Position numbers and translations under genes: made by a program
Shown: in pieces, positions 14,117-47,156 of the stretch
Layout: every line of letters begins with the position of its first letter
Numbering within the stretch: position 1 is the first letter of the stretch
Notes under the pieces: model-generated
Databases searched by the model: none
What the model was told of the DNA's origin: nothing
The model's input: the letters and a program-made list of their open reading frames with translations, nothing else
Source of the DNA: an uncultured Pirellulaceae bacterium
GTDB taxonomy: Bacteria; Planctomycetota; Planctomycetia; Pirellulales; Pirellulaceae
DNA: 54,482 nt
NCBI GenBank assembly: GCA_937928555.1
Contig: CALFWR010000048.1
Span: 1 to 54,482, forward strand
Reading direction: 5' to 3'

Positions 14117-14152
14117 GCAGGCGAGCCAAGCCGGTCACTCCCGCCGATTTAT

Positions 14153-14339
14153 CCCGGATTATTCACGACGACGGGCGTTGCTTCTACGTCTGGCCAACAG
14201 GAGCAAGGGAAAAGCTGAATTTCAACAAGAGTCGCGAATCATCCGATAGATGAAAACCTCAGCGATCGTTTCAGCGCATCAATGTCGTAGATCACTGTCT
14301 CAGCTGATTCTGACGCCCACGCCTCGTGAATAATCCGGG
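14153..14339 (+). mobile_element. Miniature inverted-repeat element, copy 1
   Basis: A 187-bp element beginning CCCGGATTATTCACGA and ending TCGTGAATAATCCGGG; the outer 16 bp of the two ends are perfect inverted repeats, with imperfect pairing further in. It is flanked by the 5-bp duplication TTTAT (14148-14152 and 14340-14344). The central TTA of the right duplication (14341-14343) is the TAA stop codon of the S4-domain gene on the minus strand. There is no coding capacity. Related copies are at 24024, 29903, 34058, 43742 and 54334. Confidence 0.92.
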
Positions 14340-14340
14340 T

Positions 14341-14562
14341 TTATGGTTCCAGGCCCACGCCGTAGACTTCGCCCGCAAACGCGACTTCGTCCCCCTCGTT
14401 AACCTTGCGGCGGCGGCGTGTTTCGACCACGCCGTTGACCAGGACATCGCCTGACTGGATCAGCCGTTTAGCCTGTCCACCGGTGGGCACGCCACACATT
14501 TGGAGGAATTGATCCAGGCGGATTCCAACAGGGGATTCGGGTGTCTCTGATGTTTGGTCCAT
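14341..14562 (-). CDS. S4-domain RNA-binding protein (YaaA/RlbA-like)
   Basis: A 73-residue protein from ATG 14562; an alternative TTG start at 14586 would add 8 residues. Nearly the whole protein is one S4 RNA-binding domain: IRLDQFLQMCGVPTGGQAKRLIQSGDVLVNGVVETRRRRKV. This is very close to the YaaA/YbcJ type of small S4 proteins, which bind structured RNA and in some bacteria take part in ribosome assembly. The stop codon falls exactly within the 5-bp target duplication of miniature element copy 1, so the gene end was regenerated by the duplication and the protein is intact. No same-strand neighbour is close. Confidence 0.92.
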   Translation of the reverse strand: MDQTSETPESPVGIRLDQFLQMCGVPTGGQAKRLIQSGDVLVNGVVETRRRRKVNEGDEVAFAGEVYGVGLEP

Positions 14563-14787
14563 AAATTCCGTGGCGATTTTGTCCAATATTCGTGGCTGGT
14601 CCTCGAAATAAGGGCGAATCTTGAATGGAAAGGTACTTCGATGGTTTCAATCGTGACAATTGTAGCAGCTGAAGCGGAACGCGTTGTTCAAGCTTTGTCC
14701 CGCATTGCGTTCCGTACCTTATCCCTGACCTAGATTGTCACACGTTGTGATCAGACCTTTAGCCGAAGGCCGCATCGCGACGCAAAA

Positions 14788-15447
14788 ATGGAATCCGAAA
14801 ACATGATCGAATTCGTTAACCAGTCATTTTCCCTGTTCAACCTTCCGGCAACGGCTCTGCTGTTGCTGGTGTTGTTGTACTGGGCGATGGTGATCGTCGG
14901 AGCCATCGGGATGGACGCGGTGGATTTTGATTTCGACGCGGATGTGGATGTGGACATCGATGGTGACTTTGACTCTGTCGCGGGCGGGTTTAGCTCATTC
15001 GCAGAGTTCATGCACCTGAACCATGTTCCGATTGTGATTGTGCTTTCGGTATTCGCACTGCTGTTCTGGGCGAGCAGCTTTTTTGGGAATCACTTCCTGA
15101 ACCCGTCAGGCAACAACATCATCGGGCTGGGCCTGATGAGCCTGAACGTTCCGGTCTGCCTGGTTTTGACCCGGCTGATCATTGGGCCTTTCGCGGAAGG
15201 GTTCAAACCACGGGAGGTGGACAAAGTTCGAGAGAGCATGGTTGGCTTGATCGGCGAAGTGACGACTTCGGAGGTGACTTCGGAGTTTGGGCAAGTCAGC
15301 ATTCGGCAGGATGGTCCGGAGTTGGTGATCAATGCCCGCACAGAAACAGACAAACCGGAGCTTGGCAAAGGCGACGCGGCAAAGATCGTGGCATACGACT
15401 ACGAGAAAGACACGTACCTGGTCGAGCTTTGCAAGTGGGAGAAGTAA
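14788..15447 (+). CDS. YqiJ-like membrane protein with a C-terminal OB-like domain
   Basis: First gene of the flotillin block. The 219-residue protein resembles the YqiJ/DUF1449 family, which is regularly found next to flotillin genes (yqiJ-yqiK in E. coli) and is related to NfeD-type partners. Residues 17-38 are a first membrane segment, followed by an Asp-rich loop (DFDFDADVDVDIDGDFD), two further hydrophobic segments (about 77-95 and 107-128), and a C-terminal domain from about residue 148 (VGLIGEVTTSEVTSEFGQVSI) that fits a small OB-like beta barrel. NfeD-type proteins work with flotillins at membranes; that role is inferred from family and position. The following gene is a 36-residue membrane peptide 69 bp away. 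Confidence 0.85.
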   Translation: MESENMIEFVNQSFSLFNLPATALLLLVLLYWAMVIVGAIGMDAVDFDFDADVDVDIDGDFDSVAGGFSSFAEFMHLNHVPIVIVLSVFALLFWASSFFGNHFLNPSGNNIIGLGLMSLNVPVCLVLTRLIIGPFAEGFKPREVDKVRESMVGLIGEVTTSEVTSEFGQVSIRQDGPELVINARTETDKPELGKGDAAKIVAYDYEKDTYLVELCKWEK

Positions 15448-15448
15448 A

Positions 15449-15479
15449 CGTGATTGTGGCTTCCAGCGGCAATCGTGCA
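15449..15479 (+). repeat. Small palindromic repeat, copy A (REP-like)
   Basis: GATTGTGGCTTCCAGCGGCAATC, a sequence of two part-complementary arms around a TTCCA loop, lies just after the YqiJ stop codon. The copies at 17761-17793 and 17876-17903 share the ATTG-GGC core and its complement. Such units often act as 3' stabilisers or transcription ends. Confidence 0.65.
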
Positions 15480-15516
15480 TTTTGGTTTACAAGCGAGAAC
15501 AACTGAGGACTGGAAG

Positions 15517-15627
15517 ATGGGTATGGGAATTCCGGGTGGCATGCGTGATCTGATCGTGATCTGTGTCGGAATCTTCTACCTCATTGGATACATCGTGAAT
15601 CAATACCTCGGCGGCGACGTTCGCTAA
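15517..15627 (+). CDS. 36-residue membrane microprotein between YqiJ and flotillin
   Basis: ATG at 15517, TAA at 15625-15627. The peptide runs MGMGIPGGMRDLIVICVG, then IFYLIGYIVNQYLGGDVR: a short polar head, one hydrophobic segment (about residues 11-31) and a short charged tail. A purine-rich GAGGACTGGAAG sequence lies just before the ATG. It sits in the 260-bp gap between the YqiJ-like and flotillin genes, all on one strand, so it is probably in the same transcript. No homologue is known to me. The chance of a random 36-codon frame is not small, but the transmembrane pattern, start context and position favour a real gene. Confidence 0.6.
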   Translation: MGMGIPGGMRDLIVICVGIFYLIGYIVNQYLGGDVR

Positions 15628-15708
15628 TCAAAACACAACATTCGATCCGGCTAAAACCGGTACTACAAACAGCAAATCAACGTTAGAGAACTTTTGGGAG
15701 AGACAACC

Positions 15709-17727
15709 ATGGCAACCTTGTTAGTCGGCAACGTCATTTGGTGGGCACTGGGAACAATTGGCGGTGTTCTTTTTATCCTGGGCCTGGGCTTTTGCATTTT
15801 CATGCTCCGCTTTTATCGAAAAGTGGCGCAGGGTACCGCCATCGTTCGAAATGGTATGCGAGGAACCATCGTTGATTTTTCTGGCTTGTTCGCCATTCCG
15901 ATTCTCCACAAAACTGAACTGATGGATATTTCGGTTAAGCGAATCGAAATCGACCGCTCGGGTGAAGATGGTCTGATCTGTAAGGACAACATGCGAGCCG
16001 ACATCAAGGTTTGCTTCTTTGTCCGTGTGAACAAAACCAAAGAGGATGTCGAACGCGTGGCCCAGTTCCTCGGTTGTGACCGAGCATCCGACGAAAATGC
16101 CTTGCGAGCACTCTTCGAGCCCAAGTTCTCCGAAGCCCTCAAGACCGTCGGCAAGCAGTTTGACTTTGTCGAGCTGTACAACTCGCGTGAAAAGTTCCGT
16201 GAGCAGATTCTTCGCATCATCGGCACCGACCTCAACGGTTACGTGCTTGACGATGCCGCGATTGACTACCTTGAGCAAACCGATCTGGAAAAGCTCAACC
16301 CGAACAACGTTCTGGACGCCGAAGGCATCAAAAAGATTACTGACTTGACCGCCGAAGAGATCACGCGGGCAAACTTCATTCAGCGTGAAAAGGAAAAGAC
16401 CCTCAAGAAGCAGGACGTCGAGGCTCGCGAAGCCATCCTTGCCCTCGAGCGTCAACAGGTTGAGGCCGAAGAAAAGCAGCAGCGTGAGATCGCCGAAGTG
16501 ACGGCACGACAAAACGCCGAAGCCATCGTCGTCGAGCAGGAAGAGCGTAAGCGCCACGAAACCGCACGCATCCGCGCCGAAGAAGAAATCCTTGTCGCCG
16601 AAGAGAATAAGCTTCGCGCGGTCATCGTTGCCGCCAAGAGCAAGGAACGAACCGAAGCGGTCGAAACAGAGCGTGTCGAAAAAGATCGCGGCTTGGAGAT
16701 CACCGAACGCGAGCGAATCGTGACTTTGGCTCAGATCGACAAAGAGAAAGCCGTCGAAGTCGAAAAGAAGAACATCCAGGACGTCATCCGCGAGCGAGTC
16801 ATCGTTGAGCGTGCGGTTGTCGAAGAGGAAGAGAAAATCAAGGACACCCGCGAGTTCGCCGCAGCGGATCGTAAGAAGCAGGTCTCAGTGACGGCCGCCG
16901 AAGAGATCGCGCAGCAGCAGTTGGTGAAGCAAGTTCAGGCCGCCGAAGCCGAAAAGCAGGCTGCTGAACTCAACGCCGAAACCGTGGTCGTCACGGCAGA
17001 AGCCGAGCGATCTGCTGCCGAAAAACAAACCGACGCCAAGAAGATGCTGGCCGAAGCGACCCAGGCCGAAGTCGCCGCTCCGGGACTTGCCGAAGCCGAC
17101 GTCATCACCGCAAAGGCCGATGCGATCCAACGCGAAGGTACTGCCGAAGCCAAAGTTGCGGAACTGAAGTTCAGTGCTGACGCTCGCGGTATCACCGAAA
17201 AAGCCGAAGCGATGAAGCTTTTCGACAGCGTCGGACGCGAGCACGAAGAGTTCAAGCTGGAGCTGGAAAAGGCCAAAGAGGTCGAGCTGGCCGGAATCGA
17301 TGCTCAACGTCAGATCGCCGAAGCTCAGGCTCACATGATCGCCGAGTCATTGCAGAACGCGAACATCGACATTGTCGGTGGCGACAACAAGTTCTTCGAT
17401 TCGATCGTCAACAGCATCACTGCCGGCAAGCAGGTCGATCGTCTGGTCCACGAAAGCAGCGTGTTATCGGATGTGAAAGATACGTTCATCACGGGCGATC
17501 CGGCTGACTTCAAATCCGAGATTCAGGGTTTGGTTGACATGTTCGGTGTCAGCAGTGAAGACCTGAAGAACCTTTCGGTCGCAGCGTTGATCGGTCAAAT
17601 GATGGGGCAGACCAGCGACACCAACGTGTTGCAGCGGCTTGGGCAGATGATGGGCATGGCCAACAAAGCCGGCGTCGCCACGCAGAACGCCAGCAAGGTC
17701 ATCGAAGCGGTTGGGGCGAAAGTTTAG
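15709..17727 (+). CDS. Flotillin-family protein (YqiK-like)
   Basis: The start is ATG 15709 with GGGAGAG 7-13 bp upstream. The 672-residue protein has a membrane segment at about residues 8-33 (WWALGTIGGVLFILGLGFCIF), an SPFH/band-7 domain at about 40-215 (KVAQGTAIVRNGMRGTIVDF then VKRIEIDRSG and VNKTKEDVERVAQF) and then a very long helical coiled coil rich in Ala and Glu, the flotillin domain with many AxEAE-type motifs (about 220-560). A soluble C-terminal helical region follows. Flotillins form large ring or dome assemblies on the inner membrane and organise lipid domains. The two upstream partners and the giant ATPase downstream support a joint function. Between it and the ATPase lie two palindromic repeats. 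Confidence 0.94.
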   Translation: MATLLVGNVIWWALGTIGGVLFILGLGFCIFMLRFYRKVAQGTAIVRNGMRGTIVDFSGLFAIPILHKTELMDISVKRIEIDRSGEDGLICKDNMRADIKVCFFVRVNKTKEDVERVAQFLGCDRASDENALRALFEPKFSEALKTVGKQFDFVELYNSREKFREQILRIIGTDLNGYVLDDAAIDYLEQTDLEKLNPNNVLDAEGIKKITDLTAEEITRANFIQREKEKTLKKQDVEAREAILALERQQVEAEEKQQREIAEVTARQNAEAIVVEQEERKRHETARIRAEEEILVAEENKLRAVIVAAKSKERTEAVETERVEKDRGLEITERERIVTLAQIDKEKAVEVEKKNIQDVIRERVIVERAVVEEEEKIKDTREFAAADRKKQVSVTAAEEIAQQQLVKQVQAAEAEKQAAELNAETVVVTAEAERSAAEKQTDAKKMLAEATQAEVAAPGLAEADVITAKADAIQREGTAEAKVAELKFSADARGITEKAEAMKLFDSVGREHEEFKLELEKAKEVELAGIDAQRQIAEAQAHMIAESLQNANIDIVGGDNKFFDSIVNSITAGKQVDRLVHESSVLSDVKDTFITGDPADFKSEIQGLVDMFGVSSEDLKNLSVAALIGQMMGQTSDTNVLQRLGQMMGMANKAGVATQNASKVIEAVGAKV

Positions 17728-17760
17728 GGCAAACAGTGGCATAGGCTGCCAGTCGCATGC

Positions 17761-17793
17761 GGCATGGTTGCGGCCTCCAACTGCAATCATGCC
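17761..17793 (+). repeat. Small palindromic repeat, copy B (REP-like)
   Basis: GGCATGGTTGCGG pairs with CTGCAATCATGCC when G-U pairs are allowed, giving a 13-bp stem with a seven-base loop. It is placed about 33 bp after the flotillin stop. There is no T run after the stem, so it is not a classical terminator. Confidence 0.65.
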
Positions 17794-17875
17794 AACTTCG
17801 ACACAGCGCAACTGCTGAAAACTTAAAGCCAAGAAAAATCTGGCCACAAGCAAAACCCAATCCCGGATCCAATAA

Positions 17876-17903
17876 ATGATTGCGGCTGGAAGCCACAACC
17901 ACG
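17876..17903 (-). repeat. Small palindromic repeat, copy C (REP-like)
   Basis: GATTGCGGC-TGGAA-GCCACAACC, the reverse orientation of copy A with the same core. It ends four bases before the ATG of the ATPase gene, so the hairpin could cover the ribosome binding site of that gene. Confidence 0.65.
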
Positions 17904-17906
17904 AAC

Positions 17907-23264: not shown

Positions 23265-23275
23265 CCAAAGTAGTA

Positions 23276-23291
23276 GGCACACTCGTGTGCC
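23276..23291 (+). repeat. Short perfect hairpin after the ATPase gene
   Basis: GGCACAC-TC-GTGTGCC, a 7-bp perfect stem with a 2-nt loop, 11 bp after the ATPase stop. It has no T run. It could be a transcript 3' end or one copy of a dispersed palindrome. Confidence 0.6.
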
Positions 23292-23352
23292 GTAACACGA
23301 ACACGGCAAACCGTTCAATCGGTATCGGATATCGATACGCGAGACTTGGCCG

Positions 23353-23871: not shown

Positions 23872-24358
23872 TCATTTCACCGGTTCATTTTCGTTTGGTC
23901 ACAGGGTGCCTCTCCCCCACGATCATTAGAAAGATCTCCAGTGGCCAATGCAAGCGATAGCGGTGTCCCCCGGAATTTAGTGGGTGACCGGGAAGCCGTA
24001 GCAGGATTCGTCAGAATTCTCATCCCGGATTATTCACGACGACGGGCGTTGATTCTACGTCTGGCCAACGGGAGCAAGGGAAAAGCTGAATTTCAACAAG
24101 AATCGCGAATCATCCGATAGATGAAAACCACAGCGATCGTTTCATCGCATCAGAGACGCGGATCACTGTCTCAACTGATTCTGACGCCCACGCCTAGTGA
24201 ATAATCCGGGCTCATCAGAGAAAAAGGAATTCTGGCGAAACTCCTGTCATTCATTGTCGATGCGTGATGTTCACCCACAGCAATCTGTGTGGACCCAAAA
24301 AAAGCGAGATGGCCTGCATGCACAAGTCACCTCGCCCTGAAAGCTACCGCGATTTGGG
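23872..24358. other. Intergenic region holding miniature element copy 2
   Basis: No gene is seen. The stretch contains miniature element copy 2 (24024-24210). The rest on each side (about 150 bp each) has no feature I can support; the promoter of the membrane protein gene at 23353-23871 must lie in the left part. Confidence 0.7.
24024..24210 (+). mobile_element. Miniature inverted-repeat element, copy 2
   Basis: 187 bp, same ends as copy 1, flanked by the perfect duplication CTCAT (24019-24023 and 24211-24215). It differs from copy 1 at about a dozen positions. It lies 148 bp downstream of the stop of the PEP-CTERM gene. Confidence 0.92.
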
Positions 24359-25189: not shown

Positions 25190-25319
25190 TACTCAGTGTA
25201 CCTTAAGGGGGTTGGTGAACGAAAATAAGGCCCAGACGCCGAAGCGCCGGACCAAAGTGAAGAAGCACAGCACTTCACTTAATTGAATGCCGATGCTTCT
25301 GGTGCGAAACTACTCAAGA

Positions 25320-29323: not shown

Positions 29324-29902
29324 ATGCCGGATAACAGCTTTGAATCGTTTCGTTCAAAAATCATTGAGGAAACTTCGGAGGGTGATGTTGATGGAGACAA
29401 GCTGACGACACGACAATGGATGGAGCGAACCTATCGTCGTATGCATCAAATCGCCAAATCCCAGATGAGTTTGGAAAATCAGAACCATACTCTTTCGGCG
29501 ACAGCGTTGATTCATGAAGTTTTCGTTCGTCTTCAAAGTCGTGAGCGGAAAGATCTGTTGGCCGAGCGTCAGTTTCTGGGGATCGTCGCTTCAGAGATGA
29601 AGAGAACGCTCATCGATGCTGCCCGGCACAAGCAAGCCGCGAAACGGGGAGGCGGCCGCAGCAGGCTTGAGCTGGACGAGGCTCTGGTAAGCGATGACCT
29701 TGTGGAATACATCTCGGATCTCAACGAAGCGGTCGAGCAGTTCGAGAAAATCGATTCCAATGCGGCCGAGCTGGTTCGTTTGCGATACTTTTTGGGTTTG
29801 TCGGAAGCCGAAGCGGCTGAAATCCTCGGCATCTCCCGCTCCACAGCCTCGCGCAAATGGTCTTTTGCCCGTGCATGGCTGTTGAATTACATGACATGTT
29901 AG
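29324..29902 (+). CDS. ECF-type RNA polymerase sigma factor (Sigma70_ECF/SigK-like)
   Basis: The 192-residue protein belongs to the planctomycete-rich ECF family: region 2 with LTTRQWMERTYRRMHQIAKSQ and LSATALIHEVFVRL, then FLGIVASEMKRTLIDAARHKQAAKRGGG, and region 4 with VRLRYFLGLSEAEAAEILGISRSTASRKWSFARAWL, a helix-turn-helix for the -35 element. It is encoded directly after the Ser/Thr kinase, so it may be controlled by phosphorylation rather than by an anti-sigma factor, which is not seen. The TAG stop (29900-29902) lies inside the 5-bp target duplication of miniature element copy 3, so the element inserted right at the gene end. The protein end, LLNYMTC, looks complete for this family. 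Confidence 0.94.
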   Translation: MPDNSFESFRSKIIEETSEGDVDGDKLTTRQWMERTYRRMHQIAKSQMSLENQNHTLSATALIHEVFVRLQSRERKDLLAERQFLGIVASEMKRTLIDAARHKQAAKRGGGRSRLELDEALVSDDLVEYISDLNEAVEQFEKIDSNAAELVRLRYFLGLSEAEAAEILGISRSTASRKWSFARAWLLNYMTC

Positions 29903-30089
29903 CCCGGATTATTCACGACGACGGGCGTTGATCCTACGTCTGGCCAACAGAAGCAAGGGAAAAGCTGAATTTCAACAAGAAATGTGAATCGTCTGGTAGG
30001 TGAAAGCCACAGTGTTCGCTTCATCGCATCAGAGTCGCGGATCACTGTCTCAACTGATTCTGACGCCCATGCCTCGTGAATAATCCGGG
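29903..30089 (+). mobile_element. Miniature inverted-repeat element, copy 3
   Basis: 187 bp with perfect CCCGGATTATTCACGA ends. The perfect duplication GTTAG lies at 29898-29902 and 30090-30094; its left copy ends in the TAG stop codon of the ECF sigma gene. It differs from the other copies mainly in the middle (around 29980-30030). Confidence 0.93.
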
Positions 30090-30173
30090 GTTAGACGTCG
30101 TCTGTCGCGAAGCGACGACATGATGTCCAGTTTCTGTCGCTGCTTCGCGGCTTGCGGAGTTGTGCGAACCACG

Positions 30174-33100
30174 CTATTGGTTCGTTTGGAAATCGCTCAG
30201 ATACTTGTTGATCACTTCGAGCTTGTTCGACCGCAAGCTGTATTGCCTTGTCGCTTTTGTGTTTGGATCGGGCACCTGATCGTTTTCAACGATCTTGCCG
30301 TCAGGATCAAGCAGGAAATAGCTTGGGTAACCGTCAAGGCCACATTCTGTGTAGGCTTTGATAATCTCGCCTGCGGCGTTGTCGACGACGATCGGATAGT
30401 TCATTCCATTATCGTCAGCAAACTTTTTGACCGCGGACGCCTTTTGCTCATTCGTGTGCACACTTACGACCGTGAACCCGGAGTTTTTGAAAACTTGATG
30501 AGCAAGATTCACCGACGGCATATCCCGATGACAGGGGCCGCAACCAATGAACCAAAAATCAAGTAGAACATACTTGCCGCGAAAATCTTTCAGTGATTTC
30601 GCATCGGTGTTCAACCACGTTCCCTCGCTCATCGTCGGTGCGAGCTTGCCGGGCAAACCTGCAGGAAACTTCTTTGCGAGCTCTGCCGCGTGCTGTTTAA
30701 ATTGCTCGATAACCTCTTTTGAAAAACCTAACGGATGTTCAGCATCTTTCTTTTTGTCAGCCAACGGCTCGAGTACCCAATCCGGAGATTTCTCACCCAG
30801 TTGTAATTTGATATCTCCAACAGAATTTTCATCCGTTAAATCCACGGCTACGCGACCGGCGTAGTTGAGCGCCGGCGCAAACGCAACGACGAACACATCG
30901 GTTTGAAGACCGCCGTCGTCGCTGTACGGTATTCTCGACATTTCAAGTTCAAAATTCCCCTGTTCATCGGTCACAGAGACAGGATCCGCATCTCCCCGGC
31001 CGAGACTGGTCATGCGGACAACCGCATTTGCGACCGGGTCGCCACTGACACCAATGACCGTCCCACTGAGTTTTGGGACTGGGTAAAGCGTGATATCGGG
31101 AATGACCGTTTCGCCCTTCGAATCAGCGGCGACCTTAAAATTTGTTAGCACTGGCTTGGCAAAAACACCTTCTTCAATGATCTCCACCGAGCAATTGCCA
31201 GCCACGACATCAATTTCGTATCGACCATCGTCATCGGTCGTCGCGTTGCCCAATTCGCTTCCCAGTTGGGCAATCGAGGATTTGACGACAGAGGTTTTGA
31301 CGAAACCGTTCTCGACCGAATCGACTTGTAAAGAGTCGCCGGAACCGATGACCCACGCATTGGGCCGTGGTGAGCCATCAGAGTTTATGACCCTTCCTTT
31401 GGCTTTGACAGGTTTTCGAATCAAAACTTTGAATTCAGATTCATTGCGATCTCTCAGATTCAATCTTGGTTCGACATCCGGGTAAATTCGGTGCTGAGGC
31501 GTTACAAAATAGCCGTCGATTTCAATTCTTAGTTCGTTGTACTGTACCTGGTGGGCCGTGACGGCAATCCGTCCTTCTTTGATCGCGAATTCATGAGACA
31601 ACGTTTCAGCAGAGGAACTGCCGCCGATCGCCGGGAACAAATTGATCTTTGGCGTTAGGCGGTTGATTTCTTCTTTCGTCAAATCGTTCGAGTAAAACTT
31701 GATTGTCACCCTCGGGCCTGACTCCAAAGTCACGTCAGCCAACTTTTTTGATTTGGGTTCGGCGATTTCAACCTTTGCAGTCTTCCAATCGGGATGCACC
31801 ACATGCGCTGTCACCATTGATTGCTCAGGGACTTCTGGCAGGTTTAGTCGCCCCTTGTCGTCACTTTCTGAGAAAACGAATCCCAACTCCTTGGCAAATG
31901 CAGGGGTGACGAAGGTTTGGTTCCCATTGATATCAGTGAATGTAAAACGTTGTAACTCGGCACCCACAACGGGTTTCCCGTCAGCGGATTTTATGTTGAT
32001 CCAACCGTTGACTGGCGGAGTCATCTTCACCGTTTCCGTGGTTGTTTGACCGCGATTCAAATTCAGCATTTGCATCGTTTTGGCATATCCAGCAGCACTG
32101 ACCATCATGTACGCGTACGATTCGAACTTGATGTCCGACACCGTCACTTCACCATTCATGTTGGCGACTCCCGAACCGACCTCTTTGAATGTTCCGGTCC
32201 AGTCGAAAACGGTGACCTTGGCACAATCAATCGGATCACCTTTGGCATCGGTCACTCTAACGTCTAACTGCGGCAGTGCGTCAGGTTTGCTTTTTGTTGC
32301 GTTTTCATCGACTTGAATCGGCGCTGCGGCAGCAACGGCGTGGGTCAACTGAACCAAACAAAGTGCAAAACAGATTGACATCAAACCGATCGCAAAACTG
32401 GCCACGATTCGTTTTCTGGAAACAGAAGCAACCGAACGTTGCTTGTTCAGTAGACATTCAACGCGTTGATATAAATCTGATTTGCGTCCCGCCATTGCCA
32501 GTGCTCCTTGAAATTCTGTTTGATTTGATTTTGAAAACGTCAGCAATGTTTCGGCATAATCAGCAGGCGCATCGCTGGTCTCTGCGACGAAATGATCCGC
32601 AAGTTGATCCTGACTCAGTCGCAGCGTCTTTCGCAACGACCAGTAAAACGGCTGGCACCCAAGGAAGATTTGGCAAAACGTCATCATTTGCCATGTGATC
32701 AAATCGCCATTGGCGATGTGTTTCCATTCATGGGCCAGGCTTTGCTCAAGTGCGACTTCGTTGCCGTCGTCCAGCAGCCAGTCAGACAGCAGAATCGTGG
32801 GGCGAATCGCCCCGTGAACCATTGGCACGTCGATTTCTTTTGATCGCGCGAACTGGACTACCGTTTTGCAATCGCTGGATCGAATCGAATCCAACATCGC
32901 GCGGGCTCGTTGTTGATTGCGGCCGCAGAGCGGAGTTGCTGTCCGTAGCAAGCGGCGAGTTGCAAGAAATCCGATCGCGATGCGGAGAGTTTGAAAAAGG
33001 CTCATCATCAGAAACCCCAAACTGACAGTGGCCTTGCAAACGGTCCACACGCCCGGCAAAGTGCTGTTCGATGCCGATTCAATCGAAGTGTCGTCCTTGT

Positions 33101-33521
33101 TTGAAATGGTGGCGTGTTCTGTAGCGTGCAATTTGCCAGTTTCCGCTGCAGGTTCTTTTGCGACGGTGGTGTCAGCGACCTGCATCGAATCCGAATTTTG
33201 AGACTGTTCCACTGATGCGGCATTCATTGGAGCGGCATTCATTGAGCGAATGTTGGTGCGGGCTCTGTCTGAATCGAAAACCGGCAAATTGGAATCAGCT
33301 ATTGCGGGCAGAACATTCAACCGGGCAAAGGAAGGCTGCCAGTTCGAACCGATCAAAATCAACGCCATTAAACTTGCAATCATGGAGACCTGAATCACCC
33401 GGATGCGTTCCAACGGTTGGCCAAGCCCTTTGACTGCCAACAGGCAAATGCCCAGCAGCACGAACGAAACGAGGGAAAACTGAATGACTGTCTGAAACAA
33501 GAAATCGACAAAGGTCATCAT
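30174..33521 (-). CDS. BlaR1/MecR1-like M56 peptidase fused to carboxypeptidase-regulatory repeats and a TlpA-like thioredoxin domain
   Basis: An 1115-residue sensor-protease. The N-terminal quarter has several membrane segments, and the M56 zinc-peptidase motif HEWKH (H264, E265, H268) faces the cytoplasm in relatives such as BlaR1. The last membrane segment is at about 370-395. From ~410 to ~900 come at least three or four CarboxypepD_reg-like beta-sandwich units (LDVRVTDAKGDPIDCAKVTV, WINIKSADGKPVVGAEL, KAKGRVINSDGSPRPNAWV, KLSGTVIGVSGDPVANAVV). The final ~150 residues are a TlpA/redoxin domain, FRGKYVLLDFWFIGCGPCHRDM, with redox pair C994 and C997. BlaR1-type proteins cleave the BlaI repressor on signal; the thioredoxin domain here could sense or reduce an extracytoplasmic substrate. 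The start ATGA overlaps the repressor's stop by 4 bp. Confidence 0.93.
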   Translation of the reverse strand: MMTFVDFLFQTVIQFSLVSFVLLGICLLAVKGLGQPLERIRVIQVSMIASLMALILIGSNWQPSFARLNVLPAIADSNLPVFDSDRARTNIRSMNAAPMNAASVEQSQNSDSMQVADTTVAKEPAAETGKLHATEHATISNKDDTSIESASNSTLPGVWTVCKATVSLGFLMMSLFQTLRIAIGFLATRRLLRTATPLCGRNQQRARAMLDSIRSSDCKTVVQFARSKEIDVPMVHGAIRPTILLSDWLLDDGNEVALEQSLAHEWKHIANGDLITWQMMTFCQIFLGCQPFYWSLRKTLRLSQDQLADHFVAETSDAPADYAETLLTFSKSNQTEFQGALAMAGRKSDLYQRVECLLNKQRSVASVSRKRIVASFAIGLMSICFALCLVQLTHAVAAAAPIQVDENATKSKPDALPQLDVRVTDAKGDPIDCAKVTVFDWTGTFKEVGSGVANMNGEVTVSDIKFESYAYMMVSAAGYAKTMQMLNLNRGQTTTETVKMTPPVNGWINIKSADGKPVVGAELQRFTFTDINGNQTFVTPAFAKELGFVFSESDDKGRLNLPEVPEQSMVTAHVVHPDWKTAKVEIAEPKSKKLADVTLESGPRVTIKFYSNDLTKEEINRLTPKINLFPAIGGSSSAETLSHEFAIKEGRIAVTAHQVQYNELRIEIDGYFVTPQHRIYPDVEPRLNLRDRNESEFKVLIRKPVKAKGRVINSDGSPRPNAWVIGSGDSLQVDSVENGFVKTSVVKSSIAQLGSELGNATTDDDGRYEIDVVAGNCSVEIIEEGVFAKPVLTNFKVAADSKGETVIPDITLYPVPKLSGTVIGVSGDPVANAVVRMTSLGRGDADPVSVTDEQGNFELEMSRIPYSDDGGLQTDVFVVAFAPALNYAGRVAVDLTDENSVGDIKLQLGEKSPDWVLEPLADKKKDAEHPLGFSKEVIEQFKQHAAELAKKFPAGLPGKLAPTMSEGTWLNTDAKSLKDFRGKYVLLDFWFIGCGPCHRDMPSVNLAHQVFKNSGFTVVSVHTNEQKASAVKKFADDNGMNYPIVVDNAAGEIIKAYTECGLDGYPSYFLLDPDGKIVENDQVPDPNTKATRQYSLRSNKLEVINKYLSDFQTNQ

Positions 33522-33913: not shown

Positions 33914-33950
33914 TCGAATTTCCTTGTGATACTTTGGCGAAATCGCACAA

Positions 33951-33967: not shown

Positions 33968-34057
33968 GTTTAAGATAGCGACACCCGGAATGGGTGTCAA
34001 CAAGGAATCGGCGATGATTTGAGTCAGCTAGGCTTATCACCAACGAGCAAATCTGAA

Positions 34058-34245
34058 CCCGGATTATTCACGACGACGGGCGTTGATTCTACGTCTGACC
34101 AACCGGAGCAAGGGGAAAGCTGAATTTCAACAAGAACTGCGAATCGTCTGGTAGATGAAAACCACAGCGATCGTTTCAACGCATCCGAGTCGCGGATCAG
34201 TACCGGAACTGATTCTGACGCCCACGCCTCGTGAATAATCCGGGC
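34058..34245 (+). mobile_element. Miniature inverted-repeat element, copy 4
   Basis: 188 bp with perfect terminal repeats. Its perfect duplication CTGAA lies at 34053-34057 and 34246-34250. It sits between the divergent control region of the BlaI gene and the terminator (34256-34286) of the small anchored-protein gene, only five bases from that terminator. Confidence 0.93.
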
Positions 34246-34255
34246 TGAAATCAGA

Positions 34256-37899: not shown

Positions 37900-38293
37900 C
37901 GTTTTCTGTTCCGTGGATCTGGGTCAATCAGTAGGTGGATCCTGATACACCAAGTTTATTCTGACCAATTGATACTTGCGAACAGCAAGATCTGATCCGA
38001 CCATGGAATATACGATGATTCGGCAAATGTTTCCTTTTTTGCCGGTATTTTTGGTATCTCGTTTACACAGGGTGTCGAGAAACGGCATCATGGGTGGCAA
38101 AAAGCAAGCAGGACCCCGACCGACCCCGACCCCAGGCACAGCTCGAACAGGCAATAATTGTCAAATTGTCATTGGCCGTGATGTCCCGAAACCGGGCGAG
38201 ATGACGTGTAGGTTCTCAATGAGATTCTTTTTGAATTCGCATTGGATTGCTCGTCCGCGGCGGCGCAACCTTAAACTGATTTTTACAGGAACG
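37900..38293. other. Divergent intergenic region
   Basis: About 390 bp between the surface protein gene and the DUF1549/DUF1553 gene. An open frame continuous with the latter runs from 37976 but has no signal peptide or good ribosome binding site, so I regard it as leader. A small direct repeat of the hexamer-like CCGACC occurs at 38116-38132. No clear promoter pair is seen. Confidence 0.5.
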
Positions 38294-40501: not shown

Positions 40502-40543
40502 CGTCAGCGACGCGATTTTTTCACCCAACCGAGGTTGCTTCTC

Positions 40544-41863: not shown

Positions 41864-42356
41864 CCAAGTTCAAAAGCTGTGATCCATGAGCCGTAGGGCC
41901 GGTTCCCACCGGCCGAGTTTGAGTCGGCCTCTTCGAGGTGCCAGTGGCGAAGAGAGGATTTCGAGACTTGCGGATTCGAACCGATGGTTACCGTGAAGAC
42001 GGCCGGTAGGAACCGGCCCTACTTGAGGACGGCCGGTGTGAATCGACAAAGTCAATGACGGTGGATTGACTGGCAAGGATGTGGGGCTTGGTTGGAATGA
42101 AGAACAGCCGTAGGGCCGGTTCCCACCGGCCGAGTTTGAGTCGGCCTTTTCCAGGTGCCAATAAACGTCGCCTCGGGATCGAACCTGCGCTGCCCCTGAG
42201 TTTGTTGGCCTTTGGAACCCTAGGCACGAAAATGTCCACTGCGCTTTTGGGCAGCGAATAACGGGATTTGAAGGGCTTTCCTGGCTCGCCTTGTCACACC
42301 GACACCTGACCGAATCATTGGCAGGTTGCCCGACTGTTTACCAACCCGATACAGCC
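41864..42356. other. Repeat-rich intergenic region
   Basis: 493 bp without a gene. Most of it is made of GC-rich hairpin repeats (listed separately) in direct and inverted orientation, plus a TTCGAACC stretch near 41975-41982 that resembles a tRNA T-loop but has no tRNA around it. Confidence 0.6.
41891..42160. repeat. GC-rich hairpin repeats (direct 53-bp pair and an inverted copy)
   Basis: A 53-bp unit (41891-41943) recurs at 42108-42160 with a few changes. A shorter copy lies inverted at 42001-42022, and a partial one at 42029-42038. Each unit contains GGCCGGT-TCCC-ACCGGCC, a 7-bp stem with a 4-nt loop. They lie after the DUF1501 stop and may end transcription or be part of a dispersed repeat family. 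Confidence 0.85.
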
Positions 42357-42812
42357 ATGAATACGGATCGTCCATCACGAAAAGAAAATCAGGAAACCGA
42401 CAACCGCTTGCCAACCGGCGAGTGGAATGGATTTTACATCGAACGTGCCCGCAGTGGTCGTGGCTGGATGAGCATGTACCTGCAATTTGAAAATGGCAGG
42501 ATCAACGGGGAAGGCACCGACTATGTGGGTCCATGGGTTGCCACAGGAAGCTACGACACCGATACGGGGCTTTGTTCCTGGACCAAGCAGTACCTTGGCT
42601 TGCATCAGGTCGTGTACTCGGGCAAAGCTTCCAGCGACGGGATCCGCGGTGACTGGCAAATCAACATTAGCTCCGGACCGTTCCACATTTGGCCGATGGG
42701 AATGACCAACACCGGTGAGCTTTACCTGAAAAACGAGTACGAACTTCCGCAAGGTGAAGGCTCGTTGATGGATTCGATCGAAGAAGCCTTGCAGCCGGCT
42801 CTGTCGTTGTAG
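42357..42812 (+). CDS. Small beta-rich protein of unknown function
   Basis: The preferred start is ATG 42357 (151 residues). The earlier open frame from TTG 42291 adds 22 residues without a signal. The middle, GEWNGFYIERARSGRGWMSMYLQFENGRINGEGTDYVG then ATGSYDTDTGLCSW and SSDGIRGDWQI, is rich in aromatic and Gly residues with alternating hydrophobic strands, like a small beta-barrel or lipocalin-like fold. No signal peptide. No conserved catalytic group is obvious. It is followed by a methyltransferase gene 131 bp downstream. Function unknown. Confidence 0.7.
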   Translation: MNTDRPSRKENQETDNRLPTGEWNGFYIERARSGRGWMSMYLQFENGRINGEGTDYVGPWVATGSYDTDTGLCSWTKQYLGLHQVVYSGKASSDGIRGDWQINISSGPFHIWPMGMTNTGELYLKNEYELPQGEGSLMDSIEEALQPALSL

Positions 42813-42943
42813 ATCTTCAATCGCCAACGTTTCTGTTGGCGGATTCCGGGCACGACCTGATTGCAACGATTGCCTCTAAGTGCAACCATTATCCCAACCG
42901 GAGTCGATCGGACTTATCGGTGATCAACTTTCAAGGAGCGACC

Positions 42944-43648
42944 GTGGCATTGAAACGAATCCTCGAACCCGAAATCATGGACACCGTTGAGGATGCTCAG
43001 CACTACGACAGCATGAACCACAACATCGTCAATCAGGGGTTCGTGGACGAGTTGATTCAATTGTTGAAGTCCGACGACAAATTTAGCGGTCGGCTGGGCG
43101 ATACGGACGGGGCATCGATTGACGTGCTGGACATCGGGACGGCCAACGCTTTGCTTCCCGTCCTGTTGTGCCAACAGCATCCGCTGTTCCGAGTGGTCGC
43201 GATCGACATGGCGAACAGCATGTTGGATTTGGCTGCCCGCTATATTCAATCAAGCCAGTACTGCGATCGTATTGAGCTGGCAAAAGTCGATGCCAAAGAC
43301 ATGCAGTACGATCCGGGCGAGTTCGACGTTGTGATGTGCAAAAGCACCATCCACCATATCCCTGTGCCTTCCCAATGCCTTGCCGAGATTGTGCGAGTTT
43401 GCAAGCCCGGTGGTGCGGTGTTCGTGCGAGATTTGATGCGTCCAACCGATGAAGCGACGCTGGAGTTGATTGTGCAGACCTACACTGGCAAGGAGAGCGA
43501 GTATTCCCAGCGTTTGTATCGTGAGTCTTTGCACGCGGCGTTGTCGCTGGATGAAATCCGCGAAATGGTGAGCGAACTGGGATGGGATCCGGGCATGGTC
43601 GTTGCCACTTCAGATCGACATTGGACTTGGGCAGCAATTGACCGGTAA
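42944..43648 (+). CDS. Class I SAM-dependent methyltransferase
   Basis: I take the GTG at 42944 as start because AAGGAGCG lies at 42933-42940, a good spacing; the upstream open frame (from 42836) has no such site. The protein has 234 residues. The SAM-binding motif I is VLDIGTANALLPVLL with the acidic motif II at VVAIDMANSMLDLA; post-motif KVDAKDMQYDPGEFDVVMCKSTIHHI and the motif VRVCKPGGAVFVRDLM complete a Methyltransf_11/25-type fold. The substrate is unknown. It stands between the small unknown protein and a convergent glycosyltransferase gene. Confidence 0.9.
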   Translation: MALKRILEPEIMDTVEDAQHYDSMNHNIVNQGFVDELIQLLKSDDKFSGRLGDTDGASIDVLDIGTANALLPVLLCQQHPLFRVVAIDMANSMLDLAARYIQSSQYCDRIELAKVDAKDMQYDPGEFDVVMCKSTIHHIPVPSQCLAEIVRVCKPGGAVFVRDLMRPTDEATLELIVQTYTGKESEYSQRLYRESLHAALSLDEIREMVSELGWDPGMVVATSDRHWTWAAIDR

Positions 43649-43741
43649 AAGGCTTTTTGGAGAAAGCAACACAAATTCCGACGACCGGATAGGCCACGGT
43701 TTTGAGGATTGAAAGGAAGGCCTGGCCTTGCAGATCTCAAC

Positions 43742-43927
43742 CCAGATTATTCACGAGGCGTGGGCGTCAGAATCAGTTGAGACAGTGATCTGCGGCTCTG
43801 ATCCGATGAAACGATCGCTGTGGTTTTCATCTGCCGGATGATTCGCACTTCTCGATAAAGTTCAGCTTTTCCCTTGCTCCCGTTGGCCAGTCGTAGAATC
43901 AACGCCCGTCGTCGTGAATAATCCGGG
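43742..43927 (-). mobile_element. Miniature inverted-repeat element, copy 5 (reverse orientation)
   Basis: 186 bp in the opposite orientation to copies 1-4; the left end reads CCCAGATTATTCACGA, the right end TCGTGAATAATCCGGG. Flanks CTCAA (43737-43741) and CTTAA (43928-43932) differ at one base, so the duplication has decayed slightly. It lies 15 bp beyond the right end of the duplication from the glycosyltransferase stop (43948). Confidence 0.9.
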
Positions 43928-43947
43928 CTTAAATCTGGCCAGCGAAG

Positions 43948-44802
43948 CTACGCTGACTTGCGGGCTTGAAGTTCTTCATAATTTCGCAAGTCTTCGCGGG
44001 CAATGTCGATGCCTGACTGGCTGTCTTCGAATTCGTCCTGGGTGCGGCCGTGCTTGATCTCCCAGAGCCTCGCCTGTTTACTGAAGCAATAGAACGCGGC
44101 CAGCCATGCTGTTTGCACTCCGGCTTTGCCGTCAAGAATCGCACCTTGAAGGATGTACTCGCGGAAGAATCGAAACGCGGGGCGAATCAACAGTTTGAAG
44201 TAGGACGTATCGCGGCCCTGGTCCATCCACTGCTGGGCTTGCAGCGACGTGTAGCGGTTCACTTTCTCGAAGTACTGGTCGTACTCCCATGCGGTGAAGT
44301 GCAACATCCGGTTTCTGAGTTTGCCGATCTTGTTTGTCGAAATTCTGACTTCGCCATGATCGCTGGGGCCTTCGTAACGGCCTTTGTCACGGTGGAACAG
44401 GCGGAGGACTTTGTCGCCACGGGCATCACCGTGCTTCAAGCGGTGCCCCATGAAGTGGTTGCTGCGATAGATCCAGTAGCCATCGAACGCCGGGCCGCGG
44501 CTGAGTTCCAGTTTGATCTCTTCGGCCAGTTCGGGCGTGATCCGTTCATCGGCGTCGACGATTAGGACCCACTGGTGGCTTGCCTGGGGAATGGCCCAGT
44601 TCTTGAAATCCCCGGAAGTCCGATATTCGCGTTCGATTAAACGCGTCTTTTCGAACTGAAAAGCGATTTCACGTGTAAGGTCCGTCGAGCCTGAATCTGC
44701 GATAATGATTTCGTCAGCAAGATCGTAAAAGCTTTCGATACAGGCACGCAGATTCAGCTGTTCATTTTTGCAGGGAACAATCACACTAAGTGGCTGTTTC
44801 AT
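43948..44802 (-). CDS. Family 2 glycosyltransferase (WaaE/KdtX-like)
   Basis: A 284-residue GT-A glycosyltransferase. The nucleotide-sugar site has SVIVPCKNEQLNLRACIESF, EIIIADSGSTDLTREIA and the DxD-type metal motif VDADERITPELAEEI. The later part (YRSNHFMGHRLKHGDARGDKVLRLFHRDKGRYEG and MLHFTAWEYDQYFEKVNRYT) matches the LPS core heptose/glucose transferase branch of GT2. The likely role is envelope polysaccharide or LPS core synthesis at the cytoplasmic membrane face. The sugar is not known. The start at 44802 lies beside the divergent acyltransferase gene, 170 bp away. Confidence 0.9.
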   Translation of the reverse strand: MKQPLSVIVPCKNEQLNLRACIESFYDLADEIIIADSGSTDLTREIAFQFEKTRLIEREYRTSGDFKNWAIPQASHQWVLIVDADERITPELAEEIKLELSRGPAFDGYWIYRSNHFMGHRLKHGDARGDKVLRLFHRDKGRYEGPSDHGEVRISTNKIGKLRNRMLHFTAWEYDQYFEKVNRYTSLQAQQWMDQGRDTSYFKLLIRPAFRFFREYILQGAILDGKAGVQTAWLAAFYCFSKQARLWEIKHGRTQDEFEDSQSGIDIAREDLRNYEELQARKSA

Positions 44803-44971
44803 TGCAGCTTCGAATCCTGCGGGTTAATGCCCAAAAACGGGCGGGTCTTTGACGGGTTGCGACCGGGAGAGTAGAAAATTCACACCCACACTGTCAACGT
44901 GGTTTGCCTGACACCTGCTAGCTCCGATAATTCGGGCTTAATCCCGCAATCCTGCTCCAGCGATTTTGTCC

Positions 44972-45631
44972 ATGAAGCAAATAACAGTCCCTACTCTGGC
45001 TTTGATCGCAAAGATCCTTAGTGGGGCAACGGTGCGCTGGGTCGAATGTGAGCCCGATACGTGTCAGCGAGTGTATTTTGCCAATCATACCAGCCATCTG
45101 GACGCATTGGTTTTGTGGGCTTCGCTCCCCAAAGCCCTGCGAAATCTGACGCGTCCAGTTGCAGCAGCAGACTACTGGGAAGGAGGGCCAGTTCGGCGGT
45201 ACATGGCAAGCGTTTTCAATGCCCTGCTAATTGATCGAAAGAAAATCAAGGTCCACAACAGTCCCGTAGACATCATGAACCGGGAAATTGCAAACAAGTA
45301 CTCTTTGATCGTTTTTCCCGAAGGCGGCCGCAATCCAACCGGTGAAATGCGCAAGTTCAAGAGCGGGCTGTATCATCTGGCACGCAAACGTCCGGATCTG
45401 GAACTGGTTCCGGTGCATATCGACAACCTCAACCGTGTGATGCCAAAGGGCGAATTCCTGCCGGTGCCACTGCTTAGCTGCATCTCGATTGGGGCGCCCA
45501 TCTTTTTGGAGTCCGGTGAAAACAAGCACCAGTTTCTGGCCAGAGCCCGCGAAGCGGTGCTGAAAATGAAACCACATGAGTGCGAGGAAACGGATCAGGA
45601 AGATGAGGCACCCGCAGAAGCGGGCAAGTGA
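44972..45631 (+). CDS. PlsC-like 1-acylglycerol-3-phosphate acyltransferase
   Basis: A 219-residue protein from ATG 44972. The HX4D catalytic motif is NHTSHLD, with H39 and D44. The second block, FPEGGRNPTGEMRKFKSGLYHLA, is the substrate-phosphate site (the usual FPEGTRS), and VPVHIDNL plus SIGAPIF follow. It can acylate a lysophospholipid or related lipid. No membrane segment is obvious; such enzymes sit on the inner face of the membrane. It is encoded next to a divergent glycosyltransferase, and the two may serve envelope lipids. The end, DEAPAEAGK, is acidic. The related element at 45653 begins 22 bp after the stop. Confidence 0.9.
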   Translation: MKQITVPTLALIAKILSGATVRWVECEPDTCQRVYFANHTSHLDALVLWASLPKALRNLTRPVAAADYWEGGPVRRYMASVFNALLIDRKKIKVHNSPVDIMNREIANKYSLIVFPEGGRNPTGEMRKFKSGLYHLARKRPDLELVPVHIDNLNRVMPKGEFLPVPLLSCISIGAPIFLESGENKHQFLARAREAVLKMKPHECEETDQEDEAPAEAGK

Positions 45632-45652
45632 AAGCGTTGGATCAATTTTGAA

Positions 45653-45838
45653 CCGGAATGATTCACCAGTCGTGGGCGTTGATTGCCGTTTCACTAAACC
45701 AGGCGTACGCCAAAGCAGGAATCCACTCCGGGACTTCGGTTCACCTCGCTGTTGATGTCCAAAACATAATTTTTTCATCTGAAGCTGGAACCTTTGCTTT
45801 AACGGAAAGTCGCGGCCGCGACTCGTGAATAATCCGGG
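45653..45838 (+). mobile_element. Miniature inverted-repeat element of a second sequence type (copy 7)
   Basis: 186 bp. Its ends match the family (left: CCGGAATGATTCAC..GGGCGTTGATT; right: TCGTGAATAATCCGGG), but the middle differs from copies 1-6. It is flanked by the perfect duplication TTGAA (45648-45652 and 45839-45843). It carries the last ~31 codons and the stop codon of the beta-propeller gene on the minus strand. Confidence 0.85.
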
Positions 45839-47156
45839 TTGAAGATCGCAGAAACCGAAACGCCAGGCATATGAACTCAGTGCCGACCAAAAGCTGAACA
45901 AGCGAAAGGTAATTCATGAAACGATCGCTGCCAAAGACGCTGTAATAACCGAAGACCAGGAAGCCGATCCCACAGAACAGAAATGTTCCTGCCAGCAAGG
46001 AGGTATGAGGGGTGTGTGTCGGTTTAGGACCGAGCCAGTCGAACACCGCAGACCAGCCAATGAAAAGCACCGTGTAGTACAAGACCGTCCACGGGACGTT
46101 GATCGATCCAATGCGAGCGCCCATCGAGTTTGATGCGATGTCCCACTTTATCAGGCCACCCTCGTCATCCGGGGCCGCGATCCAGATCGATTTGCCATCG
46201 GCAGAAAAAGCATAGGCGTTGCCGTACTTACTGTTCAGTTCAATTTCGACCAGCTTTTCTCCTGATTCGAGCGTGTATGCGTGAACGCGGGGTTGTTCAG
46301 CGGAGTCGGTGCGAATTGCGAGCATGGATCCCTGCGGCGAGAAGCGAATTGCGTCGGCGGTTCTACACGGGACCGACCAGCGTTTCTCACCAGTGGGCCA
46401 TTGCCTGAGCGTGATTTCGTCGGTGCAGGTGACGACCAGGGAGTCATCAGGTGCGAACGCAAGGACGCTCGAACATTCTGGCAAAGCGAGTCGTTCGTTG
46501 GTATGCAGGTCGAAGCCGTCCGAAAAACCATGTTGGATACGGGCGGCGGCATACGCTTTGGTCCAGCCCTCCCCCGTGTAGAACGCAATGAAGCGTCCAT
46601 CGTTGGTTGCATCAAATGGCATGCACATCGTGGGTGAGGTATACGACTCGCGGGGCCTGGATTCGGCGTCGGCATTTAAATCGAATGTCTGAAAGTGGCC
46701 TCTCAGCTTCCCATCAACCTGTTGAACAAGGATCATGTTGTCCAAGAAGATCACATTTGTGCGTAGCTTCCTGTCCAGGGGCAGGTGACGGGTAAACTTT
46801 CTTTGTTCCAGCGAATAGAAGTTCACACCGAATGGCAAGTCGCTGCCGGTGTTGACAACCGCAAGGGTTTCCTCGTCAACAAATTTCAGTCGCTTAAAGC
46901 TTTCGATTTCAATCGTGCCAGTGTATCTGCCGTTTCGGTAGAGTACGATCCGATTGTGGTAAACCGCAGCGATGTGGTTACCCGATTCCGATACGACTAT
47001 TTGACGGCAGTTGCTGTGCCGCAGAGCCGGTCGGCTTCTTGCGATCGACACGAGCGACATCGCAATTCCGGCCCATGCTACCAGCATCAGCATCCTGGCA
47101 ATGCTGATGTTGCGGATTTGAGGCTGGGAAGGTGATGAGGTCGAGTCCGTTTTCAT
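45741..47156 (-). CDS. Membrane-anchored WD40-like beta-propeller protein with an element-derived C-terminus
   Basis: The start is ATG 47156 (MKTDSTSSPS), giving 471 residues. The N-terminus has a membrane segment at about residues 19-38 (ARMLMLVAWAGIAMSLVS). Blades with patterns like DDSLVVTCTDEITLRQWPTG, SPQGSMLAIRTDSAEQPR and FSADGKSIWIAAPDDEGGLIKWD indicate a WD40-type propeller. Three C-terminal membrane segments follow (about 360-380, 392-412, 418-438). The last ~32 residues (TRIIHESRPRLSVKAKVPAS...) are encoded inside the miniature element at 45653-45838, so the original end was probably different: without the element the frame would run on to a TGA at 45597-45595. Function unknown. 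Confidence 0.8.
   Translation of the reverse strand: MKTDSTSSPSQPQIRNISIARMLMLVAWAGIAMSLVSIARSRPALRHSNCRQIVVSESGNHIAAVYHNRIVLYRNGRYTGTIEIESFKRLKFVDEETLAVVNTGSDLPFGVNFYSLEQRKFTRHLPLDRKLRTNVIFLDNMILVQQVDGKLRGHFQTFDLNADAESRPRESYTSPTMCMPFDATNDGRFIAFYTGEGWTKAYAAARIQHGFSDGFDLHTNERLALPECSSVLAFAPDDSLVVTCTDEITLRQWPTGEKRWSVPCRTADAIRFSPQGSMLAIRTDSAEQPRVHAYTLESGEKLVEIELNSKYGNAYAFSADGKSIWIAAPDDEGGLIKWDIASNSMGARIGSINVPWTVLYYTVLFIGWSAVFDWLGPKPTHTPHTSLLAGTFLFCGIGFLVFGYYSVFGSDRFMNYLSLVQLLVGTEFICLAFRFLRSSTRIIHESRPRLSVKAKVPASDEKIMFWTSTAR

Follow-up and report, generated by a model that had tools for sequence, protein, structure and literature searches.

How mobile elements can multiply to hundreds of copies in a compact genome without being lethal to the host is an open question. 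It is raised in concrete form by contig CALFWR010000048.1 of assembly GCA_937928555.1 (uncultured Pirellulaceae bacterium), on which a stretch of 54,482 nt (the window) carries six complete copies and one partial copy of a short repeat, two of them at stop codons. A preliminary description held that all target duplications fit NTNAN, in which any TNA is, by simple arithmetic, a stop codon (TAA or TGA) on one strand, and that such a preference would on its own direct insertions toward gene ends and could leave coding sequence intact. Here we ask what the repeat is, where it inserts and what accounts for its distribution.

Results

In the window, copy 1 (187 bp; 14153..14339, plus strand) has two exact 16-bp ends and is flanked by TTTAT (14148-14152 and 14340-14344); the TTA at 14341-14343, within the right target site duplication (TSD), is the complement of the TAA stop of a minus-strand gene (14341..14586) for an S4-domain protein (PF13275; Pfam S4_2 at E=1e-18, with the match running to 64/65 of the model). 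Copy 3 (187 bp; 29903..30089, plus strand; both ends exact), flanked by GTTAG (29898-29902 and 30090-30094), adjoins a plus-strand ECF sigma factor gene (29324..29902; PF07638, E=1e-41), and its left TSD terminates in the TAG stop of that gene; the preliminary description had read both stops correctly. The insertion at the sigma factor stop appears to be neutral, since three element-free congener relatives (59-61% identical) terminate at the same residue. Copies 2 (24024..24210; CTCAT at 24019-24023 and 24211-24215) and 4 (34058..34244; ends exact; CTGAA at 34053-34057 and 34245-34249), both 187 bp on the plus strand, were scored as intergenic. Copy 5, which is inverted (187 bp; 43741..43927, minus strand), has TSDs with one mismatch (CTCAA at 43736-43740, CTTAA at 43928-43932) and lies 15 bp downstream of the stop codon of a glycosyltransferase gene on the minus strand (43948-44802). 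Copy 6 (186 bp; 45653..45838, no strand assigned), with a divergent interior and TTGAA on both sides (45648-45652 and 45839-45843), lies 16 bp past the stop of the ORF at 44966-45631; its right end is exact, and it is absent from the paired statistics because its left end has four mismatches. Copy 7 (54334..54482, minus strand; left end with one mismatch; left TSD ATTAC at 54329-54333) is truncated by the right end of the window.

The repeat has a 187-bp consensus with inverted ends, a 16-base terminal sequence (CCCGGATTATTCACGA) and about 650 copies in the genome; 1,299 ends were found genome-wide at up to two mismatches, 787 of them exact. The assembly is a draft in 168 contigs, 91% complete, and its genes were called with a home-made caller. 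Pair-level and flank statistics come from a 2.05-Mb sample (42% of the genome), 2.9% of which is covered by matches to the repeat profile. End pairs were accepted only at a spacing of 150-230 bp, a first limit of 3 kb having linked unrelated ends; this gave 220 pairs, and 218 were used for gene-context tests after two overlapping ones had been dropped. Identity to the consensus has a median of 0.936 and a mean of 0.888 (121 copies), and no exact end was present among the 59 relatives searched, 27 of them congeners; from these two observations a recent spread of the repeat seems likely.

The observation of NTNAN duplications was confirmed. T at position 2 and A at position 4 hold in the six complete copies of the window and in partial copy 7, and the genome-wide logo has the same two positions; that all duplications follow NTNAN is true of the window only, the figure for the genome being 87-90%. 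TNAN stands directly before 683 of the 787 exact ends of the whole genome, against a background TNA frequency of 4.4%, and in the sample 89.2% of flanks have T at -4, 90.0% have A at -2 and 498/609 have both. An exact 5-bp duplication was found in 128 of the 220 pairs (flank matches of 3, 4 and 6 bp in 3, 4 and 1 pairs), and 115 of these 128 are NTNAN with a free central base (C38 T31 G25 A21).

The causal step from motif to gene ends was contradicted. TNA sites are barely rarer in coding sequence than expected (80.4% of them lie in genes, versus 83.5% of all trinucleotides), and genes hold 80% of NTNAN windows, so that a bare NTNAN preference would place about 80% of insertions in them; of 109 insertions, only 8 were found there, the 109 being the 115 exact NTNAN sites minus 6 within other MITE pieces. 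Per 1,000 NTNAN sites, insertions number 21-27 at the stop itself, 12-14 over the following 20 bp, 5-9 as far as 150 bp and 1.6-3.3 farther out, which makes the stop codon the peak of a gradient on the 3' side of genes. Convergent gaps hold a 1.6-fold excess of insertions, and divergent gaps hold 0.6 times the expected number.

Among the 101 insertions that remain when the 8 in genes are set aside, 22 lie on stop codons, which make up 6.1% of non-disruptive NTNAN windows, a 3.5-fold excess (p=2e-7). These primary counts use exact-TSD copies only; ends outside that set gave 15/264 on stops against 6.2 expected. No stop excess was seen in copies whose TSDs differ at two or more letters (3/44, or 6.8% versus 6.1%, scored on the left flank only and with no NTNAN filter), and the 13 copies with exact but non-NTNAN TSDs all miss stops. 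Both checks put forward in the preliminary description, the genome-wide logo and the excess at stops, thus came out in its favor, and its interpretation is supported in part, the causal step excepted. Since duplication covers the entire target, the stop codon survives an insertion centered on TAA, TGA or TTAG/TTAA and the protein keeps its full length, and the stop excess probably arises because such insertions leave the protein unchanged. An age signal of purging was not found, in-gene copies being no nearer to the consensus than others (median identity of exact-TSD copies: 0.930 in genes, n=9; 0.941 intergenic, n=89; 0.941 on stops, n=22). The element has the same orientation as the hit gene in 15 cases and the opposite one in 7, with no clear bias.

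The 16-base end is identical, 16/16, to the left end of L236, a 1,721-bp IS1380 element (left end CCCGGATTATTCACGAAG, right end CCCGCATCATTCACGAAC, CTAG on both sides) whose 463-aa protein is an IS1380 transposase (NF033539, E=5e-111; PF13701, E=7e-122; both above the cut-offs); L128, a congener element (PF13701, E=1e-159), has the end CCCGGATATTTCATC with CTAG. The repeat combines terminal inverted repeats, a target duplication and high copy number, and its 187 bp, coding for at most 62 residues, hold no internal transposase. Judged from these sequence features, it is a miniature non-autonomous element (MITE) with IS1380-type terminal repeats. All 16 resolved related IS1380 elements have 4-bp YTAR duplications (CTAG, CTAA, TTAG, TTAA), and of 17 identical ends in other genomes, 13 have a YTAR flank and none an NTNAN one, which marks the 5-bp NTNAN target of the MITE as a variant; a 4-bp flank match, as in those 16 relatives, occurs in only the four pairs noted above.

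A PF13701 search of the assembly, in which one element may be missing given its completeness, returned no intact IS1380 transposase with matching ends; the matches were C119, split over two frames, the fragment C30 and one weak match to an IS4 transposase. C119 was dropped as a partner, its ends (TCCTTAAACAAG with CTAG) being unlike those of the MITE. IS4 was likewise dropped as the source, on account of the ends of its relatives (see Discussion); C96, the sole PF01609 match, is an IS4 transposase interrupted by a MITE copy. Two copies of an unassigned element end, CCCGGATTATTCATCAGAAATATTTTGCAG, are flanked by NTNAN (ATAAA, TTAAC); a 134-bp query with this end matched two places and no transposase.

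Discussion

Our results suggest that selection on the survival of insertions offers a simpler account of the pattern than the target motif does on its own, and the fall in density past the stop fits selection for harmless sites. The reading that we favor, and regard as likely, is that these are MITEs with IS1380 ends, mobilized probably by an IS1380-family transposase, as the end sequence suggests, whose cut would be made at a palindromic NTNAN target of 5 bp. In place of the 4-bp YTAR cut of the related IS1380 elements, the enzyme would have adopted one of 5 bp, in which a single further base stands in the center between T and A. The survivors are probably found between genes and at their 3' ends because copies that break genes are selected against. 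Against this reading we counted the lack of an intact transposase with MITE ends in the assembly, a 5-bp cut seen in none of the 16 resolved autonomous relatives, the stop excess in convergent gaps and its lack in mismatched-TSD copies, the non-NTNAN copies that all miss stops, and the missing age signal of purging.

It is doubtful, though less so than the other alternatives, that the insertion machinery itself favors gene 3' ends or stops through local DNA structure, an AT-rich TAA(A) context or the end of transcription. In convergent gaps, stops were hit in 11/339 cases and other sites in 14/2,317 (p=1e-4), which argues that promoter avoidance alone is insufficient, since promoters should not matter there; the stop excess also survives weighting by the extended target logo (22 versus 5.0 expected, p=4e-9). 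Exact-TSD hits reach 39 per 1,000 TAA stops and 2.3 per 1,000 TGA stops (17 and 1, p=6e-5) despite little central-base preference in intergenic targets, and A follows 0.67 of hit TAA stops (n=18) versus 0.27 of all TAA stops. However, stops are not hit at a significantly higher rate than the 20 bp that follow them (p=0.17), the TAA:TGA ratio among other ends is 9:6 and not significant (26:7 overall), and copies with mismatched TSDs lack the excess. Between 0 and 150 bp past stops, no gene-level TAA effect was found (TAA 10, TGA 11, with TAG genes higher at 27). A stop-codon-seeking element, in which an IS1380-lineage transposase shifted from the YTAR to the NTNAN cut would favor TAA stops, duplicate the stop on entry and spread to hundreds of copies without protein change, we regard as unlikely. 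The YTAR cut contains a stop codon on both strands, and the NTNAN cut contains one on one strand.

That the MITE ends are recognized, and the NTNAN duplications made, by a DDE transposase from a different family (of IS4 or IS5 type) is improbable. The 5-bp NTNAN is unlike the YTAR of resolved IS1380 elements, and the CCCGGATTATTCATCAGAAATATTTTGCAG-ended copies share NTNAN flanks, yet no transposase is linked to that end and the MITE end exactly equals an IS1380 end. Four relatives of the C96 IS4 transposase have inverted ends bearing GAATGGCACT or GAATGGTACT rather than CCCGG, and on C96 this motif sits between the IS4 gene and the CCCGG end. One subgroup of the IS5 family has a TNA target; it resembles the MITE in this core but duplicates 3 bp, a length matched in only three pairs. 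ISEcp1 belongs to the IS1380 family. For ISEcp1 units, 5-bp AT-rich duplications are reported in PMC9325909, which speaks against an enzyme from another family. Very improbable is steering by NTNAN alone, even though TAA and TGA stops are all NTNAN sites and every TNA is a stop on one strand: stops hold 22% of non-disruptive insertions, far beyond their share of windows, and TNA is scarcely depleted in genes. We give equally little credence to an artifact of the draft assembly or the gene calls. In 59 of the 220 pairs the two TSDs disagree at two letters or more, and 42 of these pairs have NTNAN at either end, as expected of repeat-joined contigs (or real recombination), but the target logo is independent of gene calls and holds genome-wide, the primary counts are restricted to exact TSDs, and the stop test recovered 388/411 called TAA and 388/416 called TGA stops while passing 11/5,450 intergenic controls.

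Because the target holds a stop codon that the duplication preserves, a measurable share of insertions falls on gene ends with the protein sequence unharmed. The same terminal sequence with 4-bp YTAR and 5-bp NTNAN cuts offers a natural comparison, through which the length and the specificity of targets become testable within the IS1380 lineage.

Among known systems, the IS1380 family (PF13701/NF033539) shares with the MITE the identical 16-base end and a palindromic target with a T and A core; the MITE differs in having no transposase gene and in the length of its target. The piggyBac elements, for which IS1380 serves as the outgroup in PMC10813416, also have a T/A-centered target (TTAA, with variants such as TTAG and CTAA), but they are eukaryotic and their target is 4 bp, not NTNAN. 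The titles and abstract openings of the open-licence literature searched name no IS1380-derived MITE, no NTNAN target of IS1380 and no stop-codon bias of a MITE; passages of PMC3542288 name no IS1380-MITE link, and PMC11578231 connects its MITE with IS1182. The repeat resembles bacterial MITEs in its 187-bp length, inverted ends, target duplication, hundreds of copies and lack of room for a transposase; it is unlike usual MITEs, for which PMC4133298 gives TA as the duplication, in its 5-bp NTNAN duplication and its excess at stop codons.

Results

A 187-bp MITE with 16-base inverted ends (CCCGGATTATTCACGA) is present in the window as six complete copies and a seventh truncated at the window's right end. 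The organism's own genome (4.87 Mb in 168 contigs, 91% complete) contains 787 exact ends (399 + 388) and 1,299 when up to two mismatches are allowed, hence about 650 copies; profile matches to the element cover 2.9% of a 2.05-Mb sample. Exact ends were absent from 59 relatives (including 27 congeners); among 391 further genomes sampled from the phylum, 6 carried a few each, so the expansion of the family seems to be specific to this species. Identity to the consensus (121 copies) has a median of 93.6% and a mean of 88.8%. The window also contains two 55-bp direct repeats (AGCCGTAGGGCCGGTTCCCACCGGCC...) separated by 217 bp and enclosing an inverted relative (41889 to 42160), and a 1,115-aa protein (30174 to 33521) combining a BlaR1-type M56 peptidase domain, carboxypeptidase-regulatory-like domains, and a C-terminal redoxin domain.

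The preliminary description had placed T at position 2 and A at position 4 of every target duplication (NTNAN), which holds for most ends rather than all: in whole-genome pattern counts, TNAN directly precedes 683 of the 787 exact ends (TNA background frequency, 4.4%), and among 609 sampled flanks, 89.2% carry T at -4, 90.0% carry A at -2, and 498 carry both. Exact 5-bp duplications flank 128 of 220 paired copies in the sample; 115 are NTNAN, with a free middle base, and the logo is roughly palindromic, a weak T preceding the core and a weak A following it. The duplications are mismatched in 92 pairs and differ at two or more letters in 59; because NTNAN stands on both sides in 42 of these 59, the mismatches suggest exchange (recombination) between copies or assembler joins.

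Gene calling with a dicodon model, after removal of 218 copies and one duplication each, gave 1,539 genes (84% coding) in the sample, where 79.9% of 86,163 NTNAN windows would break a gene, 1.0% lie exactly on a stop codon, and 0.2% touch one. Among 109 unmasked insertions with exact NTNAN duplications, 77 were intergenic, 8 were in genes, 2 were at starts, and 22 were on stops (18 exactly, 4 touching). Stop codons are over-hit relative to random non-breaking NTNAN sites, with 21.8% observed versus 6.1% expected among the 101 non-breaking insertions (p = 2e-7). The excess was also found with one-mismatch copies added (25 of 124; p = 1e-7), with weighting by the extended logo (p = 4e-9), and among ends outside exact-duplication pairs (15 of 264 on gene stops versus 6.2 expected; one-sided p = 0.002). 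In contrast, copies with at least two mismatches between their duplications, judged by the left flank with no NTNAN filter, lay on stops at 3 of 44 permissible sites, as expected, and none of 13 exact non-NTNAN copies contacted a stop. The two genes of the window that meet a MITE copy, encoding the S4 protein (PF13275, model matched to 64/65) and an ECF sigma factor (PF07638), keep their ends, and three element-free sigma relatives from congeners terminate at the same residue; a stop-codon target is rebuilt by the duplication, and therefore nothing is lost from the gene.

Insertions per 1,000 NTNAN sites numbered 21 to 27 at stops, 12 to 14 in the next 20 bp, 5 to 9 up to 150 bp, and 1.6 to 3.3 beyond. 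The stop rate did not differ significantly from that of the next 20 bp (p = 0.17), was borderline against the next 30 bp (p = 0.05), and differed clearly from the next 100 bp (p = 0.001). In the exact set, TAA stops were hit 17 times and TGA once at equal availability (434 and 437), and ends outside it hit 9 TAA and 6 TGA stops; we regard this TAA bias as a lead, not a result. Exact-duplication insertions 0 to 150 bp past the stop in the sample were more frequent for TAG genes (27 over 2,379 sites) than for TAA (10 over 2,004) or TGA genes (11 over 1,674).

Discussion

The proposal that NTNAN, by always holding a stop codon on one strand, would by itself steer insertions to gene ends is not borne out. 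TNA lies mostly inside genes (80.4%, versus 83.5% of all trinucleotides), and a transposase wanting only NTNAN would therefore land in genes four-fifths of the time. The loss of insertions inside genes probably reflects selection, even though the copies that lie in genes today appear no younger than other copies. Convergent gaps are over-hit and divergent gaps under-hit, as predicted by selection for promoter-free sites. The transposase itself may favour gene 3' ends, and stops are over-hit also within convergent gaps (p = 1e-4). IS1380 elements, in contrast to the MITE here, are over-represented in tandem gaps according to PMC9208149.

A Gemmatimonadaceae MAG contains a complete element of 1,721 bp (L236) whose left end matches the 16-base MITE end at every base; this element has CTAG on both sides and encodes a 463-aa IS1380 transposase (NF033539 and PF13701). 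A sequence-identical transposase in a Planctomycetia MAG (L237) reflects either recent transfer or a binning error. End pairs and duplications were sought at 44 IS1380 loci (two of which, L152 and L264, are the same place), and the 16 resolved all have 4-bp YTAR duplications: 12 CTAG (L249 so read, its top-ranked reading being 6-bp GCTAGC), 2 TTAG, 1 CTAA, and 1 TTAA (L257, read over an offset CCGG). These include L128, from a congener, and, in the own genome, the split IS1380 copy on contig C119, whose ends differ from those of the MITE; the remaining 28 gave no end pair or a chance-like pair only. Other genomes supplied 17 distinct exact ends, of which 13 follow YTAR and none follows NTNAN; together with the L236 match, this indicates that one terminal sequence goes with 5-bp cutting in this genome and 4-bp cutting in others. 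In the own genome, a MITE copy splits an IS4-family transposase gene on contig C96 (L041, 1258 to 2280; NF033592 above cut-off), which is the genome's only PF01609 match. Two copies of another element end, CCCGGATTATTCATCAGAAATATTTTGCAG (C96:75620 and C74:357, 70 bp in common), have NTNAN flanks (ATAAA and TTAAC), and no transposase was linked to either.

The MITE was likely moved by an IS1380 transposase that is missing from this assembly or present only in broken form. Its cuts on the two strands would have been staggered by 5 bp about a symmetric T-N-A core, in place of the 4-bp stagger about T-A of its IS1380 relatives, and selection would then have kept mainly intergenic copies, densest on or just past stop codons. 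No mention of an NTNAN rule appears in the accessible portions of the literature searched on IS1380 targets and MITEs. The MITE's 5-bp NTNAN duplication differs from the 4-bp YTAR duplication of IS1380 relatives. ISEcp1 belongs to IS1380. For ISEcp1 units, 5-bp AT-rich duplications are reported in PMC9325909, and 5 bp is therefore not foreign to the IS1380 family.
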